From Qipengyuania psychrotolerans (lineage in GTDB: Bacteria > Pseudomonadota > Alphaproteobacteria > Sphingomonadales > Sphingomonadaceae), in assembly GCF_019711355.1 (NCBI RefSeq), contig NZ_CP081297.1, forward strand, positions 1,178,001 through 1,242,000: a DNA stretch of 64,000 nt, written 5' to 3'. The notes beneath the pieces were generated by a model, which worked only from the letters and a program-made list of their open reading frames with translations, searched no databases and had not been told where the DNA came from. Shown piece by piece: positions 21,080 to 29,087 of this stretch. A program made the translations under genes and the position numbers. Position 1 is the stretch's first letter; the number at the start of each line of letters is the position of its first letter.

Positions 21080-23701
21080 CTACTGGCGTAGACGCTCGAG
21101 CGCTTGCGCCATCACCACATAAAGCTTGCCCATATCGCTGGAGAGCAGCGTGACGCTTAGCGCGTTGCCATCACGAGTGGACAGTAGGTTTCGCAGCATC
21201 GCTTCGAAGTCATGGATGTAGCGATTTACGTGCTCCCGGAAGTCTGGGTCGGCATCGTAGAGCTCCGCAATTTCCCGAGCTTCACCATTGTCTATCAGGC
21301 GGACTGCACGGCGGGTAAATATGCCCCGGTCGCCCCTGAGATAGCTTGACCAAGCTGTATCAGTAACCTCGGCGGACAATGCCTTGGAAATGTCGATTGC
21401 GTTCGAGTTGAGGCTTTCAGTTATGAGAGCCACGCGGCGTGCGAAATCACCGTCCACTGTATCAGCCGCCTGCTCCCGGGCGTGGGCAATACGGGCCTCA
21501 AGATTGCCGGTGAGATCATTCAGGCGGGCCAATTGATCGCGTAGTTCGCGTGTTGTTGCGCGGGCAGCCTCCGTTGATTTGTTACGTGCAGCATCCAGCT
21601 TGGCCAGTGCTTCATCCGTGTGTTCGGCCAGCGCCTTGTCGATTGCCGCACTGCTACGCTCGCCGACTTTCTCTGCAAGCGCGGTGATCCGAGCGGCGTT
21701 TTCCGTTTCCAGTGCGTCGAGGGCGCCCTTGGCGCTATTTTCCAGAGCAGCGATGGCTTCGCGCAGCTCAACCTGGACGCGCTGAGCGAGCTGTTCGCTT
21801 TCCTCGCGCAGCGACACCACGCCGGAGCGCAGGCGCTCAACCCCTTCGATCTGGGCATTTGCCGTATCGCCGAAGTCCGATTGGAACCTCTCGAAACCCT
21901 CGATCGCGTCCAGGGTGCGCTTCTCGATCTCCGCCATGCCTTCGGTTAGGCGTTCACCCGATATACGCGCTTCATTGAGCAGGCCGCGGACGGCCGCAGT
22001 CCGAGTTTCAATTTGGGCGAGCCGGCCTTCGGAGGCATCCATCGCAATGGGCAGGTCCTCCCTGCTGTGACGCGCGCTGGCCTGGATCAGTTCAAGCAGC
22101 CGGACACTCGCGTCGGTCAGTGCTGCAACGGCCTGATCGGTCCCGTCCAAAGCTTCTCGGCTGCCGATCAGCGTTTCGTTAAGGGAAGCGACACCGCTTG
22201 CCACGGTCTCGCTCGCTTCCCGGCCCTGCTCGGTCACCGTATCGAATGTCGAGGCGAGGGCAGCGAACCTGGTATCGAGGACATCGCCCTGTTCCATCAG
22301 GATGCCCATCTGCTCCCTTTGCGCTTCGCGGCGGTGCGCAATAGCGATATCAAGCGCTTCCAGCTTGTCGCTCAATTCCTGCGACAGCTGGTCTTGCGAG
22401 TGCGCAATTGCATCAAGGCGCGCTTTCCCCTCGGTATCCAATACTTCGGCGTTTTCGCGGACCATCGCCTTGATCGATTCCGCTTCTGCGCCCAAGGCGT
22501 TGAAGCGCGCCAGAGCCGCTTCTTTCAACGAATTCTCGATTGTCTCAATCTTGTCCGCGGTCTCCGCCAGCCTCAACTTCATTGCGTCGACCTGGCTGGC
22601 CCATTTTGCAATAGCGCCGTCTTCACCTGCACGAACGGCCGCGGCAATTTTGGTCGCTTCATCACGGAACCTTGCAAGGCGTTCGCGCAAGGAGGCAAGT
22701 GCAAGCTCCTCCTCCGCACTGGCAGTCTGATGCGCTTCGGCAAGTTCGCTGCGAAGCGTCGCCGAACGCTCGCGAATAGCGGCGAGTGCTTCAACTTCAC
22801 GCGCGTCCAGAGCCGAGCGGAACTGGTCGCTTTCCTCGCGCAGAACGGCAAACCTTTGGGCGGAAATCTTCTCGAGGTCTCCGGCCTGGGCTGAGAAGGC
22901 CTCCAGCGCATCATCCACGCGCATTTGCAGCGACACGACCTGACGTTCGCTTGCCGCACCAAATTCGTTGAGACGATCGAAACCTTCCACCAACTTGTCG
23001 AGCTGATCCTGCGAAGTTCTACCTGCGCCAGCGATCTGGTTGGATACGTCCTTGGCAGAGTTTGCGATAACCGGAAGATTATCACGCAGGCGGGTCATGT
23101 TCTCGAGCGCGGCACCGCTTACGCTGGCAATCGCTTCGACCTGCTCGCCATTCTCACGCACTAGGCCCTGGAGGCGATCTGCATGCTCCGAAAGACGTTC
23201 ACCTGCGGAGCGGCCGAGAAACTCCAGTTCACGCGACTGACTGCCCAGGAATTCACGCGCAAGGCTCAATTCGCGGTTTACCGTGGCGAGCCGAACCTCA
23301 AGCTGAGCAGATTCTTCTGCGAGAGAGCGAGCGATTTCACCGAAGCGCTTCGATTCTGCCGTCGAGTTGCGGCTCGCCAAGAGCCAGGCCGCCAGAAGCA
23401 GCAAAACCGGCATCGCCCAAGCGGTGATCCAGCCAGTCCATGCTTGCGCTGATCCACCGGCGAGCATCTCGGCACGGTGCGCCCATGCGAAGAATGCCGT
23501 CCAGCCAGCAATCGCTGTCGTGGCGAGGACTGGGGCAATCCAAGCCGAAATATTTGCGCTTGGAGGAGCATACTCGCTCCACTCCTCGGACTCGTAGACC
23601 TCGTCTTCCAGCTCCAGGGCCGTTGCCTCAGGCGCGTCGACAGGAGAAGCGGCATTTTCCTGCTCACCTTCTACAACCGAAATATGCGAACGTTTTCTCA
23701 T
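21080..23701 (-). CDS. Large membrane-anchored coiled-coil protein of unknown function
   Basis: An 873-residue protein. After an acidic N-terminus there are two hydrophobic segments, about residues 50-75 and 88-110 (the second includes MPVLLLLAAWLLAS). From about 115 to 780 it is a long alpha-helical coiled coil rich in Ala, Glu, Arg and Leu, broadly like apolipoprotein- or kinesin-type repeats. The last 90 residues look globular (for example YDADPDFREHVNRYIHDFEA). The architecture suggests a membrane-tethered structural or signalling scaffold. It is divergent from the HPt-like gene across a 70-nt promoter with three TTAA motifs. I cannot assign a function. Confidence 0.85.
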   Translation of the reverse strand: MRKRSHISVVEGEQENAASPVDAPEATALELEDEVYESEEWSEYAPPSANISAWIAPVLATTAIAGWTAFFAWAHRAEMLAGGSAQAWTGWITAWAMPVLLLLAAWLLASRNSTAESKRFGEIARSLAEESAQLEVRLATVNRELSLAREFLGSQSRELEFLGRSAGERLSEHADRLQGLVRENGEQVEAIASVSGAALENMTRLRDNLPVIANSAKDVSNQIAGAGRTSQDQLDKLVEGFDRLNEFGAASERQVVSLQMRVDDALEAFSAQAGDLEKISAQRFAVLREESDQFRSALDAREVEALAAIRERSATLRSELAEAHQTASAEEELALASLRERLARFRDEATKIAAAVRAGEDGAIAKWASQVDAMKLRLAETADKIETIENSLKEAALARFNALGAEAESIKAMVRENAEVLDTEGKARLDAIAHSQDQLSQELSDKLEALDIAIAHRREAQREQMGILMEQGDVLDTRFAALASTFDTVTEQGREASETVASGVASLNETLIGSREALDGTDQAVAALTDASVRLLELIQASARHSREDLPIAMDASEGRLAQIETRTAAVRGLLNEARISGERLTEGMAEIEKRTLDAIEGFERFQSDFGDTANAQIEGVERLRSGVVSLREESEQLAQRVQVELREAIAALENSAKGALDALETENAARITALAEKVGERSSAAIDKALAEHTDEALAKLDAARNKSTEAARATTRELRDQLARLNDLTGNLEARIAHAREQAADTVDGDFARRVALITESLNSNAIDISKALSAEVTDTAWSSYLRGDRGIFTRRAVRLIDNGEAREIAELYDADPDFREHVNRYIHDFEAMLRNLLSTRDGNALSVTLLSSDMGKLYVVMAQALERLRQ

Positions 23702-23771: not shown

Positions 23772-24071
23772 ATGGCCTATCATTCTCCCAGCTTTGACAG
23801 CGCACTGGGTGCGGCAGCCGGAGAAGATCCGAAGCTTGCGGCCGAATTGCGTGCTGCGTTTCTCGCAAGTCTGAAGCAGAGGCTGGACCTCCTCAAGCGC
23901 GCCCGGTGTGATGCCAATTGGTACCAAGCAGCTGAACGCATACGAGGGCTGGCGGCCAGCTTTTCAGCAGTGGAGCTTATAGAGTTGGCGGAATTGGCGC
24001 TTGAATCAGCTCCGGGAGAGCCGACTGTGATCAGTTCAATCGAGAGGTTTGCCGATAATTTCGGGGAATAG
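23772..24071 (+). CDS. HPt-like protein lacking the phospho-acceptor histidine
   Basis: A 99-residue all-helical protein resembling a histidine phosphotransfer (HPt) domain. The segment AAERIRGLAASFSAVELIELA lines up with the HPt consensus AAHRLKGAAASFG, but the phosphorylated histidine is replaced by Glu-55 (codon at 23934-23936). It should therefore not carry phosphate, though Glu could mimic a phosphorylated state or leave a pure binding domain. The resemblance is by eye from the spacing of the helix around this motif. A histidine-kinase-like gene 2.2 kb downstream also lacks its histidine. The gene lies just downstream of the CtrA-like sites. There is no strong ribosome site before the ATG. 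Confidence 0.7.
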   Translation: MAYHSPSFDSALGAAAGEDPKLAAELRAAFLASLKQRLDLLKRARCDANWYQAAERIRGLAASFSAVELIELAELALESAPGEPTVISSIERFADNFGE

Positions 24072-24152
24072 GGCGGACACGCTCATACGAGTGCTTTCCA
24101 GCCCAGTCTGTGGCTCCTAAGGTGAAATTCCTTCCTCGGGAGAGATTTTCAC

Positions 24153-25331
24153 GTGCGTATAGCTTTGCTTTCTACCATCGACCGGGACCCAAAGCCCGGG
24201 AAGATGAGGGCAGCGTACGTCAACTTCGCAGGCGCACGTGTCGTCGAACGGCAACTCGATCTGGCGTTAAGCCTTGGCTGCGAAACAGTAGCTTGCCTTG
24301 CCGACGGCATTAGCCGTGAGGTTATTGAGCTGCAGCACCGCGCAGAGCGGTCATGCGCAAAGTTTGTCACCATCCGCGACCACGCAAAGCTGTCCGGCCT
24401 GATTACTGCAGCGGACGAGATCGTGGTTATCGCCCCTGGGGTGCTTCCTGATACTGCGACCGTTGAAAGACTGCTGGTGAAGCCTTCAGTCATCGGATTT
24501 CCAGCCGATATCGCGGTGCCGGCCGGTTTTGAACGGATCGACGCAGAGTTCGCATGGGGCGGAGTGCTGCTGGCGCGGGGCAACCTGATCGAGAGACTCG
24601 CCGAATTGCCAGCGGACATTGATGTGCCTTCGGCCCTGATGCGGTTGGCCTTGCAGGCAGGAACCCGCCTAGTGCCCGCAGAACGCAAACTGGTAGACGA
24701 GAACGACTGGACGATAGATGCACCTCGCGAAGCGTTGATCGTTCGCGAGAAGAAATGGATCGAGGCGCAGCGCGAAGCGGTGCCCTTCAACGCACCTGGA
24801 ATTGCCGTGGCCGAGAGAGTCGGGACGCGGCTTGCACAAGACGTCGTTGGACGGCGCAGCGAGACGGGTCCAGCAGTGGCTGGCGGCGTTTTCGGCCTCT
24901 TTGCAATCGCCGCCGGGGCTTTCGGTATGCCTGCAACTGGCCTTGGCCTCGCTACCGCCGCCGCTTTCCTTGCTCGAATAGGTTCAGTGATAGAGCGCGT
25001 GGCCCGTAAAGGGCAGGTAGCCAGCAAACGCGGTCCGCTTTTGAAACTTCTCGATTACGCCTTAGACCCTATCTTTATCTTACTGATTTTCTTGGCATCT
25101 CCGGATCTTCCTGACCTTATGCGCATATTTGTGCCGTTGATGCTTTTTGGCATACTCAGGCTGGGTGCTACCCACGGTAGCGAGAAATGGCGGCGAACTT
25201 ACGCGGATCGTATCCTTCTTGGCTTTGTCCTAGTGCCGGCCGCGTTTCTAGGTTTCGCACCGGAGGCAGCGGCACTAATTGCTTTGATGGTTTTGGCCTC
25301 AAGATTTTTTGACAGCTTTCGCGGTGACTAA
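24153..25331 (+). CDS. Nucleotidyltransferase-like domain fused to a multi-spanning membrane domain
   Basis: A 392-residue protein from a GTG at 24153, with GGGAGAG just upstream. The N-terminal half (about 1-200) has the look of an NTP-transferase fold, for example GARVVERQLDLALSLGCETV, but lacks the glycine-rich GGxxxR loop. The C-terminal part from about residue 245 has roughly five hydrophobic segments. The order resembles bifunctional sugar-alcohol cytidylyltransferase/CDP-alcohol transferase proteins, but I do not find the DG-AR-G-D-D motif of the latter. Function unknown; a role in envelope lipid or polyol synthesis would be speculation. Confidence 0.65.
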   Translation: MRIALLSTIDRDPKPGKMRAAYVNFAGARVVERQLDLALSLGCETVACLADGISREVIELQHRAERSCAKFVTIRDHAKLSGLITAADEIVVIAPGVLPDTATVERLLVKPSVIGFPADIAVPAGFERIDAEFAWGGVLLARGNLIERLAELPADIDVPSALMRLALQAGTRLVPAERKLVDENDWTIDAPREALIVREKKWIEAQREAVPFNAPGIAVAERVGTRLAQDVVGRRSETGPAVAGGVFGLFAIAAGAFGMPATGLGLATAAAFLARIGSVIERVARKGQVASKRGPLLKLLDYALDPIFILLIFLASPDLPDLMRIFVPLMLFGILRLGATHGSEKWRRTYADRILLGFVLVPAAFLGFAPEAAALIALMVLASRFFDSFRGD

Positions 25332-25346
25332 CCTCGAATTAACCAC
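25328..25346. promoter_or_regulatory. Second CtrA-like site upstream of the 25368 gene
   Basis: CTAA at 25328, seven bases, then TTAACCAC at 25339-25346. The right half matches 7 of 8 bases of the CtrA half-site TTAACCAT, and the left half matches 3 of 4. It lies about 22 nt before the next gene. It is weaker than the tandem site but in the same cluster. Confidence 0.4.
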
Positions 25347-25367
25347 GCAACTGCTACGCGCGGGCAT

Positions 25368-26330
25368 ATGACGATGGCAAAAGATCGAGCCGAACGGATA
25401 AGTTCAGCGCAGGATGAACTGCGTTGTGCGCTTGCGCGGGGCGATCGTACGCTGTCGAAGATCGAACCAATCCTCGGGCACCTGCTTTCCACGCCCGACC
25501 ACTCGCTTTTCAGTGACGAGATCATCGCACGCCTGCGAGGCATGCTGAATGACCTGGCATGGCAGATCCTTCGGGTTCAAGCCGAAGCAACGGGGCAATC
25601 CGGGCGCGAGGCATTTGCTGAGCGTCACGGCGAGGCGTTGGCCGCTCATTTCCAGAGCCGTGGAGCCTTGTTGTCTCATTGCCATGCACTGGCAGTCGAA
25701 TGGCAACTGACCGAAAGGTTGGAAACGCAAAATGGGCTGGATCCCGTACTGTCGCCGGTACTCCAGGCACTTATCGCGCATCCTGACCCGTCCATGGCCA
25801 GCGCGGCGATGTCCGCCCTTGCTGCCCAGGCGCGCTTCGCTCAAGCGCAGCGTCGGATGGAGTTGCCGCTGGCCGAACTTCCCGCAGACCTGTTCCACGA
25901 AACATTGCTGGCCTGGCGTGCTTATAACGGAGAGCGCGCCTCCGACGCACTGACACGTGCTGAGAGCAAGTTACGGTCCGGTTACGATGAGAGCGCTGGC
26001 CGCCTCGCTCTGTTCGCGAGGCTTATCGCGGGTGCGGGCAAGGATGGCCTGGATGCGCTCATTCCCGACCAAGCGGGAGCCGGACTGTTTTTCACGGCCC
26101 TTGCCGCAAGGTCGGGTCAGGATCGTGTCTTTGCCATTCTTTCAAGCAACGCGCGCCAGATTGCGCGCTTGGCACTGGGTCTGCGCGCTGCCGGCCTTGA
26201 TGCCGGGCAGATCGACGAGGTTCTCCTGCGATTGCATCCACAAGCTGCACCTGTACCCGAACTCGATCGGATTAGCGGCGAAGATGCGCGTAGAATGCTG
26301 GCCGAAATTTTGAATGAGGGTCGGCCATGA
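25368..26330 (+). CDS. Helical protein, DUF2336-like
   Basis: A 320-residue predicted soluble, mostly alpha-helical protein. The middle region, with SMASAAMSALAAQARFAQAQ and LPLAELPADLFHETLLAWRA, recalls the repeated helices of DUF2336 proteins of alphaproteobacteria, which often contain ELP-x-LLH motifs. I am not certain of the match. No catalytic motif is visible. An alternative ATG is at 25374. It overlaps the histidine-kinase-like gene by 4 nt (ATGA), so the two are almost certainly co-translated and probably act together. Confidence 0.65.
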   Translation: MTMAKDRAERISSAQDELRCALARGDRTLSKIEPILGHLLSTPDHSLFSDEIIARLRGMLNDLAWQILRVQAEATGQSGREAFAERHGEALAAHFQSRGALLSHCHALAVEWQLTERLETQNGLDPVLSPVLQALIAHPDPSMASAAMSALAAQARFAQAQRRMELPLAELPADLFHETLLAWRAYNGERASDALTRAESKLRSGYDESAGRLALFARLIAGAGKDGLDALIPDQAGAGLFFTALAARSGQDRVFAILSSNARQIARLALGLRAAGLDAGQIDEVLLRLHPQAAPVPELDRISGEDARRMLAEILNEGRP

Positions 26331-27745
26331 ACGTTGCAACGCAGACAATTGCGCAAGGGCGCAGTGACGCGCAGGATCGGCTTATCGAAGCGGACGGCCC
26401 CCTGGCGGACCTCCAACATGATTGCGGTGGTCGGATTGGTGGGACAATCGCCATCCCCGCATTGCTTGCATTGGTCGAAAAGGCCCGCTCATACGGTTTG
26501 AGAATTGCCCGTCAGTTTGAGGCGGTCGATGACCAGAACAGGATTACCGCCTGGGCCGAGATTTCGCCGGTTGATGGCGGGAAAGATGGCTGCGAGATTG
26601 TCATCGCAAGCTGGCAAACGCAGCCCCTTCCTCCGGAAAACAGCGTCGAAGCGGATCGCCGGAAAGTTGAGATAAACCGCCATCTGGCGGAGTGTACAGC
26701 GCGGCTCGATCCATCTCAGGCTCTGCTTTCTGTCGATACCGAGGCTGCAGATCTGACGGATTTTGCCAGCAAGGCCCTGACTTCCATCGGAAAGCCTTGG
26801 ACCGATCTGGTGGAACTGCCGGGCAATGCTCATGAGCAACCGATGCACTGGCGGCTTCTTGATGGCGCGAAGTGCAAGATACCGGGCTCCAAGCGGGAAT
26901 GGACCGCGCACCTCGAGCCGCTCGGCCAGCCAAACCCTGGCAGTGCAGGGTTTGTGCTTCACCTGAATGCAACCACTCCACTCGCCGATGTGGGAGAGCA
27001 GGATGCGGGCGAAACTCCCTCAATGGGGCGCGACCTGACGCCGGTTCTGCGCCAACCGATCAATCGCATCATCGCCAACGCGGAAACGATCCGCACCAAA
27101 CTCGCCGGACCGCTGGCGGAGGAATACAGCCAGTACGCCGCTGATATTGCGAGCGCGGGCCAGCATTTGCTGGCACTGGTGGATGACCTTTCCGATCTCG
27201 AAATCGTCGAATCCGAGGACTTCGTCACCGAGCCTGACCGGATTGAGCTGGCAGACGTCGCTCGGCGCGCTTGCGGAATTCTAGGGGTGAGAGCGCAAGA
27301 GCGCGGCATCACACTCGTCCCGCCCGCCGAAGGTGAGAGCCAATTGGCCATCGCCGAGTTCAGGCGCGTACTGCAGATCATGCTCAACTTGGTTGGCAAC
27401 GCGATCCGCTACTCGCCAGAAGAGAGTCAGGTCTGGATCAGGCTTGATTGTATCGGCTCGCGAGCGATGATCACCGTTGCCGACCAAGGGAAGGGCCTTG
27501 ATGAAGCGCAACAGGCGAAAGTTTTCGAGAAATTCGAAAGACTGGGCCGAAGCGGTGACGGCGGGTCTGGGCTTGGTCTCTATATTTCCCGCCGGATCGC
27601 GAGGGCGATGGACGGCGACCTGACGGTGGAGAGCGCGCCGGGATTGGGCGCTCGTTTCACCCTGTCAGTGCCTGCTGCGGATGACTTGCGGAGTGAGCAG
27701 CGTGACGGGCCGGGCAGCAACGTTCCAAAGCCGGACGGAAAATAG
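26327..27745 (+). CDS. Histidine-kinase-like protein lacking the H-box histidine
   Basis: A 472-residue cytosolic protein with an N-terminal region of unclear fold (about 1-225), a dimerisation-type helix pair (about 230-300) and a full C-terminal HATPase domain. The ATP motifs are intact: N-box MLNLVGNAIRYSPEES, G1 VADQGKGLDEAQ and G2 GSGLGLYISRRIA. In the H-box the usual SHELRTPLNAII reads TPVLRQPINRII, so the phosphorylated histidine position is proline (about residue 239). It may be an allosteric regulator or a kinase using another residue. No membrane helices are seen. It ends a set that includes the histidine-less HPt protein. Confidence 0.85.
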   Translation: MNVATQTIAQGRSDAQDRLIEADGPLADLQHDCGGRIGGTIAIPALLALVEKARSYGLRIARQFEAVDDQNRITAWAEISPVDGGKDGCEIVIASWQTQPLPPENSVEADRRKVEINRHLAECTARLDPSQALLSVDTEAADLTDFASKALTSIGKPWTDLVELPGNAHEQPMHWRLLDGAKCKIPGSKREWTAHLEPLGQPNPGSAGFVLHLNATTPLADVGEQDAGETPSMGRDLTPVLRQPINRIIANAETIRTKLAGPLAEEYSQYAADIASAGQHLLALVDDLSDLEIVESEDFVTEPDRIELADVARRACGILGVRAQERGITLVPPAEGESQLAIAEFRRVLQIMLNLVGNAIRYSPEESQVWIRLDCIGSRAMITVADQGKGLDEAQQAKVFEKFERLGRSGDGGSGLGLYISRRIARAMDGDLTVESAPGLGARFTLSVPAADDLRSEQRDGPGSNVPKPDGK

Positions 27746-27800: not shown

Positions 27801-29087
27801 TCAGCGCTGGTCCATCGGGACGTAATCGCGCTGCGTCGGTCCAGTGTAAAGCTGGCGCGGACGGCCGATGACCTGGCCGGGATCGGAAATCATCTCGTTC
27901 CACTGTGCAACCCATCCGACGGTACGGGCGAGGGCGAAGAGGGCGGTGAACATCGTCGTCGGGAAGCCGATTGCCGAAAGGATGATGCCGGAATAGAAAT
28001 CCACGTTCGGGAACAGCTTCTTTTCCTTGAAATAATCGTCATTGAGAGCGAGTTCTTCAAGCTGAAGCGCGGTTTCGAACACCGGATCCTTGACGTTCAG
28101 GGCGTCAAACACCTCACGGACAGTTTTCTGCATGACCGTGGCGCGCGGATCGTAGTTCTTATAAACCCGGTGGCCGAAGCCCATGAGGCGGAACGGATCG
28201 TTCTTGTCTTTCGCACGCTCGATATAATGCGGAATGCGATCGGGAGTGCCGATTTCCTGCAGCATGTTGAGCGCGGCTTCGTTCGCTCCGCCGTGCGCAG
28301 GGCCCCAGAGACACGCGATGCCAGCGGCGGTGCAGGCGAACGGATTAGCGCCCGACGAACCAGCAAGCCTTACGGTCGACGTCGATGCGTTCTGTTCGTG
28401 ATCGGCATGGAGGATGAAGATGCGATCCATGGCCTTCTCGACGGCCGGGTGCAGCTCATACTCTTCTGCAGGAACACCAAAAGTCATGCGCAGGAAGTTG
28501 CCCGTGTAGCTGAGGTCATTCCTCGGCTGCATGAACGGTTGGCCGATCGAGTACTTGTAAGCCCAAGCTGCAATTGTCGGCATCTTAGCGATCAGCCGGT
28601 GGCTGCTGATCTTGCGATGTTCCGGATCCGAAATATCCGTGCTGTCATGGTAGAACGCCGACAGCGCGCCAACGACACCGCACATGATTGCCATCGGGTG
28701 CGCATCGCGGCGGAAGCCCTGATAAAACTGGCGCAGCTGATCGTGCAGCATTGTGTGGCGGGTGATGGTGTAATCGAAGTCGCCAAGTTCATCCGGGCTC
28801 GGCAGTTCGCCATTGAGCAGCAGGTAGGCAACTTCCATGAAGCTCGAATTTTCGGCCAGTTGCCCGATCGGATAACCACGGTGCAGCAACACACCTTCTT
28901 CACCGTCGATATATGTCAGCGCGCTTTCGCAGCTTGCTGTGGACTTGTAGCCCGGATCATAGGTGAATGTGCCAGTCGTGCCGTAGAGCTTGCGGATGTC
29001 GATGACATCGGGCCCAACGCTTCCCTCAAGAATGGGAAAATTCTGGCTCTGTCCGCCAAGATCGAGAGTTGCCTGTTTATCGGCCAC
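27801..29087 (-). CDS. gltA: Citrate synthase
   Basis: Condenses acetyl-CoA and oxaloacetate, the entry step of the citric acid cycle. The 428-residue protein has the N-terminal beta extension of the type II hexameric enzyme. Active-site segments are [19 protein letters not shown] (about residue 266) and the [15 protein letters not shown] motif with the second catalytic histidine near residue 309; the catalytic aspartate falls in DVDFYSGI. It lies 14 nt after gltX on the same strand, so it may be partly co-transcribed with it, and has a strong terminator. Confidence 0.98.

Follow-up and report, generated by a model that had tools for sequence, protein, structure and literature searches.

Absence of the phosphorylatable histidine from both the HPt-like and the histidine kinase-like protein of a conserved gene cluster in Qipengyuania and its relatives

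The gene cluster

In this work, we have analysed a stretch of 64,000 nucleotides, hereafter the window, which covers positions 1,178,001-1,242,000 of a one-contig genome of 2.74 Mb; where the nearest protein relatives are named records, they come from Qipengyuania and Erythrobacter. The cluster comprises, in this order, a DUF1467 gene (+), the gene of an 873-aa protein (-), those of an HPt-like protein of 99 aa, a 392-aa protein, a DUF2336-like protein of 320 aa and a kinase-like protein of 472 aa (all +), and a citrate synthase gene (-). Its features, in window coordinates, are as follows.

21080..23701, - strand: 873-aa protein, constant divergent neighbour, kept in 146/149 family genomes
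23772..24071, + strand: 99-aa protein of HPt fold (predicted) without the phospho-His (pseudo-HPt)
23934..23936, + strand: codon 55, GAA (Glu), at the HPt His site, read in the sequence
24153..25331, + strand: 392-aa protein, with a nucleotidyltransferase-like N-part and a degenerate CDP-alcohol phosphotransferase-like C-part (profile-profile comparison)
24961..25068 (approximate), + strand: segment of the 392-aa protein aligned to the DG(x2)AR motif, motif residues absent
25368..26330, + strand: DUF2336-like all-helical protein, 320 aa
26327..26330, + strand: ATGA stop/start overlap of the DUF2336-like and kinase genes, read in the sequence
26327..27745, + strand: HisKA/HATPase kinase-like protein without the phospho-His (pseudo-histidine kinase), 472 aa (Pfam)
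27041..27043, + strand: codon 239, CCG (Pro), at the H-box His site, read in the sequence
27386..27418, + strand: kinase N box, N354 to N358 (N358 in 117/117 scored family members)
27482..27496, + strand: kinase G1 box, D386, G388 and G390 (the first two in 117/117, G390 in 115)
27524..27538, + strand: kinase F box, F400 to E404 (F400 in 117/117)
27563..27577, + strand: kinase G2 box, G413, G415 and G417 (each in 117/117)
27801..29087, - strand: citrate synthase gene (gltA, named by eye), convergent neighbour and orthology marker

The three open reading frames on which a sequence-only reading of this DNA had built (23772-24071, 25368-26330 and 26327-27745, of 99, 320 and 472 aa) are present, as is the ATGA at 26327-26330 by which it had coupled the DUF2336-like gene to the kinase gene. 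Among the 87 relatives having a long upstream open reading frame, and taking the first in-frame start codon, 20 show such a 4-base overlap. By eye, the 873-aa protein has a hydrophobic N-terminal part followed by a long coiled-coil-like part, an architecture that we take to resemble that of the polarity protein TipN.

The kinase-like and HPt-like proteins

The replacement of the H-box His by Pro, which the sequence-only reading had proposed, is borne out by the CCG codon at 27041-27043, which encodes residue 239 in the context TPVLRQPINRII. The Pfam HisKA profile matches the protein with 32.5 bits, above the cut-off of 26.9, from just past the His site onwards, and HATPase_c matches it with 94 bits, also above cut-off. 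Pro-239 occurs in all 121 near rows (the best 120 of 6002 matches plus the query). In the family set of 118 rows, 117 of them scorable, the site holds Pro (70), Arg (12), Ala (9), Gln (5), His (5), Glu (4), Lys (3), Thr (3), Gly (2) and four residues seen once each; 112 of the 117 members thus lack the His and five have it. Tyr, the residue found in DivL, was not seen at this site among the 117.

The ATP-binding boxes were said to be kept, and they are, well beyond this genome: N358, D386, G388, F400, G413, G415 and G417 are present in every one of the 117 scored family members. The intactness of these seven residues would suit a heterodimer, in which the ATP domain of the kinase-like protein phosphorylates the His of a canonical kinase in trans, or in which the protein tunes that kinase, and the same genome has 16 further HisKA matches: the search pattern recognised a His box in ten of them, one has Tyr, and the box of the other five went unrecognised. 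The pseudokinase ChrS, which works with HrrS, offers a precedent, although what ChrS lost is its ATP domain and not its His (PMC9491836). However, a further kinase gene is not seen in the conserved block, and in both helix 1 and the ATP lid the protein has departed from the His-bearing kinases; we consider a heterodimer unlikely.

A second possibility is that the protein acts only as a HisKA phosphatase, removing the phosphate from a response regulator. The amide of Gln-243, at His+4, occupies the phosphatase position, and it is found in all 121 near rows (again the best 120 of 6002 matches plus the query); moreover, HisKA phosphatase activity can do without the His, according to PMC12632262. 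Yet Gln-243 is present in only 56 of the 70 Pro rows and in 63 of 112 members family-wide, the residue at His+1 is mostly Val or Ala and not Glu or Asp, and the same paper argues against phosphatase activity as the general role of pseudo-histidine kinases (PMC12632262). A phosphatase-only protein is therefore quite unlikely.

The Glu-55 that had been noticed at the HPt His site is likewise encoded as read (codon 55, GAA), and lies in an xRLKG-type context, A-E-R-I-R-G-L-A-A-S-F. The identification of the 99-aa protein as an HPt depended on the method: its predicted structure is the HPt helical bundle, whereas the match from sequence is weak (Pfam Hpt, PF01627, E 0.061; 14 bits, under the cut-off of 24.6). 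The Hpt profile matches 19 of 40 relatives at E of 1 or less, the best at 0.0018, and the Sphingosinicella orthologue passes the Pfam cut-off with 33.8 bits. Site 55 holds Gln (52), Met (30), Glu (18), Leu (15) and His (1) in the 121 near rows, and Met (20), Leu (19), Gln (18), Trp (10), Glu (2), His (2), Ala (2) and five single residues in 78 family rows. Altogether the His is absent from 81 of 86 HPts of the family and present in five, to which genome G005 adds another. Most docking positions (Lys or Arg at His+3, Gly at His+4) are kept in the HPt-like protein, and the residue that replaces the His is usually bulky.

Invariance of the two replacements, which had been put forward as a check, is seen for Pro-239 in the near rows (121/121) and is lost family-wide (70/117), and Glu-55 is not invariant even in near rows (18/121). 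The idea of an unusual phospho-residue finds no support, as HPt site 55 wanders among Gln, Met, Leu, Trp and Glu, and the kinase site among Pro, Arg, Ala, Gln, Glu, Lys and Thr.

The DUF2336-like and 392-aa proteins

The name DUF2336 is justified by descent, not by the window protein itself, which has no Pfam match; nor has the whole genome any match to PF10098. That profile is matched by relatives at the same place: 15 of 23 aligned proteins encoded upstream of the kinase do so at E of 0.001 or better (best 2.2e-64), in a set that wrongly includes one member (L131), to judge by eye a protein of the 392-aa type. The model of the window protein is all-helical, with a pLDDT of 89.2, and no solved structural relative of it was seen. 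The usual position of the gene is directly upstream of the kinase. In nine of 87 relatives, however, the nearest long upstream open reading frame is of the 392-aa type, and in five of these no more than 60 bases separate it from the kinase, so that these loci lack DUF2336 (L110, G127; L111, G035; L133, G050; L142, G031; L146, G118).

The 392-aa protein of the window has no Pfam match either. Its Sphingosinicella homologue, encoded at the same place, has 479 aa and matches PF01066 over the cut-off, and profile-profile comparison ties the two through an intermediate group: window group against Sphingosinicella type, E 9e-23 over 261 columns; window against intermediate group, E 8e-35 over 383 columns; intermediate group against Sphingosinicella type, E 3e-66 over 419 columns. 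The two links by way of the intermediate group extend along almost the entire protein. It is through this 479-aa homologue that the family resembles the CDP-alcohol phosphotransferases with inositol substrates (PF01066); the homologue itself scores far below the cut-offs of the inositol-phosphate transferase models (NCBIfam DIPP and PIP synthase). The DG(x2)AR motif that marks a CDP-alcohol phosphotransferase is not found in the 392-aa protein; unlike in those enzymes, it is missing in 102 of 104 family genomes and kept in two. The motif Asp and Gly are both aligned in three genomes (G085, G017 and G104), of which G104 lacks the following Ala-Arg, hence the count of two. The alignment of the membrane part is loose in the window's own group, where the absence of the motif is plain and the exact replacements are not. 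The 392-aa protein is thus a probable third pseudoenzyme of the cluster.

In S. microcystinivorans, the interval between the HPt and the DUF2336-kinase pair (L300:3177-8775) holds an inositol-1-phosphate synthase gene, a cytidylyltransferase-like gene, two CDP-alcohol phosphotransferase-like genes and the gene of a 486-aa protein, possibly a set for an inositol lipid or glycan.

Distribution in the family

With thresholds of E 1e-40 or better for the kinase and E 0.001 for the HPt, 116 of 149 family genomes have the kinase, 96 the HPt, 94 both and 31 neither, a co-occurrence with p = 1.7e-15 when phylogeny is not corrected for. Just two genomes have an HPt and no kinase match, one of them with a divergent kinase and the other running off the contig. 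The kinase occurs without a detected HPt in 22 of the 149, including the same-genus genome G146, and without an adjacent DUF2336 in at least five, so the three proteins are not obligate partners. Where both genes lie inside the fetched DNA, kinase and gltA are convergent within 1 kb in 101 of 102 genomes; among these 101 kinases, 97 lack the His, three have it (G085, G024 and G109) and one is unscorable.

For the 33 genomes without a kinase match, 16 loci were fetched through the 873-aa gene, plus that of G099. Neither HPt nor DUF2336-kinase is present in 11 of the 16, and the spacing of the 873-aa gene, the 392-aa gene and gltA is too tight to fit them in G036, G053, G129, G125 and G045; the HPt and the DUF2336-kinase pair therefore tend to leave together, while the 392-aa gene stays. 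As for the other five loci, G012 stops at a contig edge, G117 runs off the contig at the kinase, G052 and G077 do have the kinase, and G005 has a His-bearing HPt with no adjoining kinase. In G005 this HPt (L262:2462-2749) lies between the 873-aa gene and, after it, a long gene of opposite strand, putA-like by eye; no DUF2336-kinase pair was seen at that locus.

Ancestry and order of the losses

Outside the family, 17 loci were collected from DUF2336 matches, and in 14 of them a kinase stands beside DUF2336 (12 in other families of the order, two elsewhere in the class). All 14 kinases have the His in a SHEL(R/K)TPLNA box. No homologues of gltA, HPt or the 392-aa gene were found near these loci, and the coiled-coil gene appeared in one, which has no kinase. 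Inside the family, the canonical kinase box occurs in G085, G040 and G052. The G085 kinase is 100% identical to that of a Sphingosinicella MAG record, 93% to that of S. microcystinivorans and 89% to that of S. soli, which identifies G085 as Sphingosinicella. These three Sphingosinicella records carry the 873-aa gene, an HPt with AAHRLKGAA, further genes, DUF2336, a kinase with SHELRTPL and gltA; two more, MAG records on short contigs, keep only DUF2336, kinase and gltA.

In a tree of 130 kinases, drawn from its midpoint and with bootstrap not settled, the kinases of G085, G040 and G052 join the outgroup, and one clade of 72 rows (98/94) has Pro in 70 of them and Ser and Ala in one row each. 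The two genomes of genus g25, of 2.1 Mb, have a His in DHSFKPPL or DHSFKPSI, with no acidic residue at His+1 (L139 and L271 in G109, L140 in G024), on a long stem among His-less rows; this His may have been retained or regained. The fewest His changes on the tree are two for the kinase and three for the HPt. As for the joint states in 85 genomes, two have both His (G040 and G085), three that of the HPt only (G034, G127 and G099), none that of the kinase only, and 80 neither.

Two separate losses, as had been claimed from the window, are what these data point to: the basal genus Sphingosinicella still carries both His at this locus, the kinase His is present in 14 of 14 pairs outside the family, and three genomes of 85 keep only the HPt His against none in the reverse state. 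We infer from these three genomes, of which G099 is very divergent, that the kinase lost its His first and the HPt later. His in homologues, named beforehand as what would count against the earlier reading, does exist in a few relatives (5/117 kinases, 5/86 HPts plus G005, 1/121 near HPt rows); being basal or sporadic, these states speak of ancestry and not of an error in that reading. The His of g25 and the sporadic HPt His (1/121 near rows; G034 and G127) further indicate that neither site is closed to His.

Constraint on the remaining residues

Nei-Gojobori dN/dS ratios in twelve congeneric pairs, which are rough, some dS values exceeding 1, were 0.06-0.24 for the kinase (12 values), 0.04-0.21 for the HPt (7), 0.08-0.35 for the DUF2336-like protein (8), 0.07-0.41 for the 392-aa protein (11), the least constrained, and 0.02-0.14 for gltA (8). 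The cluster genes are under purifying selection. These values bear on the view that what is left here is a relic in decay, with enzymes that are losing their activity by drift. The upper ratio of 0.41 for the 392-aa protein agrees with decay, as do the free variation of sites 55 and 239 outside the Pro clade and the joint absence of HPt and DUF2336-kinase from 11 of the 16 loci fetched via the coiled-coil gene in genomes without a kinase match; the range of 0.04-0.24 for kinase and HPt, the ATP-box residues in 117/117 members and the Pro in 70/72 rows of one clade do not, which makes decay very unlikely.

Taking as newly fixed those positions shared by 90% or more of the 70 Pro rows, against 16 His-bearing kinases, the Pro clade has 26 in the kinase, 14 of them in the H-box helix (six: 239, 247, 250, 251, 254 and 255) or the ATP lid (eight, within 404-414), and the pocket residues are unchanged between the two sets. 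In the ATP domain the newly fixed residues include Tyr-362, Asp-411, Ser-414 and Tyr-419, and in the H-box helix Thr-254 (94%) is the sole newly fixed hydroxyl residue. With its pocket intact, the ATP domain could be that of an atypical kinase, phosphorylating a Ser, Thr, Tyr or other residue of its own, such as Thr-254, or of a partner. But a third of the other His-less kinases have Thr-254 too, and no residue is fixed at the HPt His site, which leaves an atypical kinase highly improbable.

Discussion

We take the cluster to descend from a histidine phosphorelay module, made up of the DUF2336 protein, a HisKA kinase and an HPt, whose His-bearing form survives in Sphingosinicella. The His has gone from both proteins, while folds and profiles, ATP pocket, gene order and purifying selection have been kept, and together with the Sphingosinicella form this leads us to propose that the module has turned into a contact-based switch, a proposal to which we give about even chances. 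The kinase-like dimer, jointly with the product of the DUF2336 gene that precedes its own, would bind ATP and change shape with a signal; it would not phosphorylate itself on the DHp histidine and would pass the signal on by contact, by analogy with DivL. The HPt-like protein would most likely dock on a receiver or a kinase, to block it or read it, as plant AHP6 does; three other HPts of the same genome match over the cut-off and are possible competitors in a competition of the AHP6 type. Working by binding is compatible with the observations, and the intact ATP pocket, which goes beyond the needs of a pure scaffold, leaves room for trans-phosphorylation or phosphatase activity. A wider form of the proposal, that the whole locus shifted from catalysis to contact, is more tentative and we would not favour it over its negation: histidine kinase, HPt and CDP-alcohol phosphotransferase-like membrane protein would all have lost catalytic residues in one family, with gene order and proteins kept and intermediates in living genera, and the product would be a non-catalytic, ATP-gated, membrane-associated complex.

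His-less proteins of both kinds have precedents. DivL, the pseudo-histidine kinase of Caulobacter, is a His-less HisKA protein able to work as a binding sensor and, like the kinase-like protein described here, an alphaproteobacterial protein with HisKA-type dimerisation and ATP domains and H, N, G1, F and G2 boxes; DivL acts by binding, as our protein would. At the His site of DivL, which binds ATP weakly, stands a conserved Tyr (Ala in Magnetospirillum), where here the residue is Pro or varies freely (PMC4211667). Unlike DivL, the kinase gene studied here usually has a DUF2336 gene directly upstream and a pseudo-HPt in its cluster. AHP6 of Arabidopsis, an HPt that also lacks the phospho-His, is a negative regulator that competes for kinases and regulators (PMC6963811); it is a plant protein, while the bacterial pseudo-HPt is clustered with a kinase-like gene. 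RcsD (YojN) of E. coli shares with our kinase a phosphorelay transmitter domain without the conserved His (PMC3842833). It can be compared with the intermediate state, in which the kinase His is lost and the HPt His kept, and not with the window. RcsD carries a His-bearing HPt domain in the same protein. The DUF2336-HisKA pairs of other Sphingomonadales families and of Sphingosinicella are the same adjacent pair, homologous over both genes, and differ from that of the window in their canonical SHEL(R/K)TPLNA box.

Loss of the phospho-His is rare: a survey found it missing in 0.9% of HisKA domains (722/76,471) and in 0.9% of Hpt domains (90/10,312), and single cases of each are already known and counted (PMC12632262). 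We found in the literature searched no description of a family-wide locus with both losses and intermediates. Here both are lost together across much of one family of soil and sea bacteria, with named strains of Sphingosinicella keeping both His and other genomes in mixed states, so that the route from a phosphorelay to a binding switch, and the order of catalytic loss, become directly testable by orthologue swaps. Database names such as 'sensor histidine kinase' and 'Hpt domain-containing protein' promise an activity that these proteins probably lack.

The genome of the window also encodes a separate HisKA protein whose His site holds Tyr (SYEFRTPL; G000:C1:1535226-1535429, L285), which may be DivL itself.
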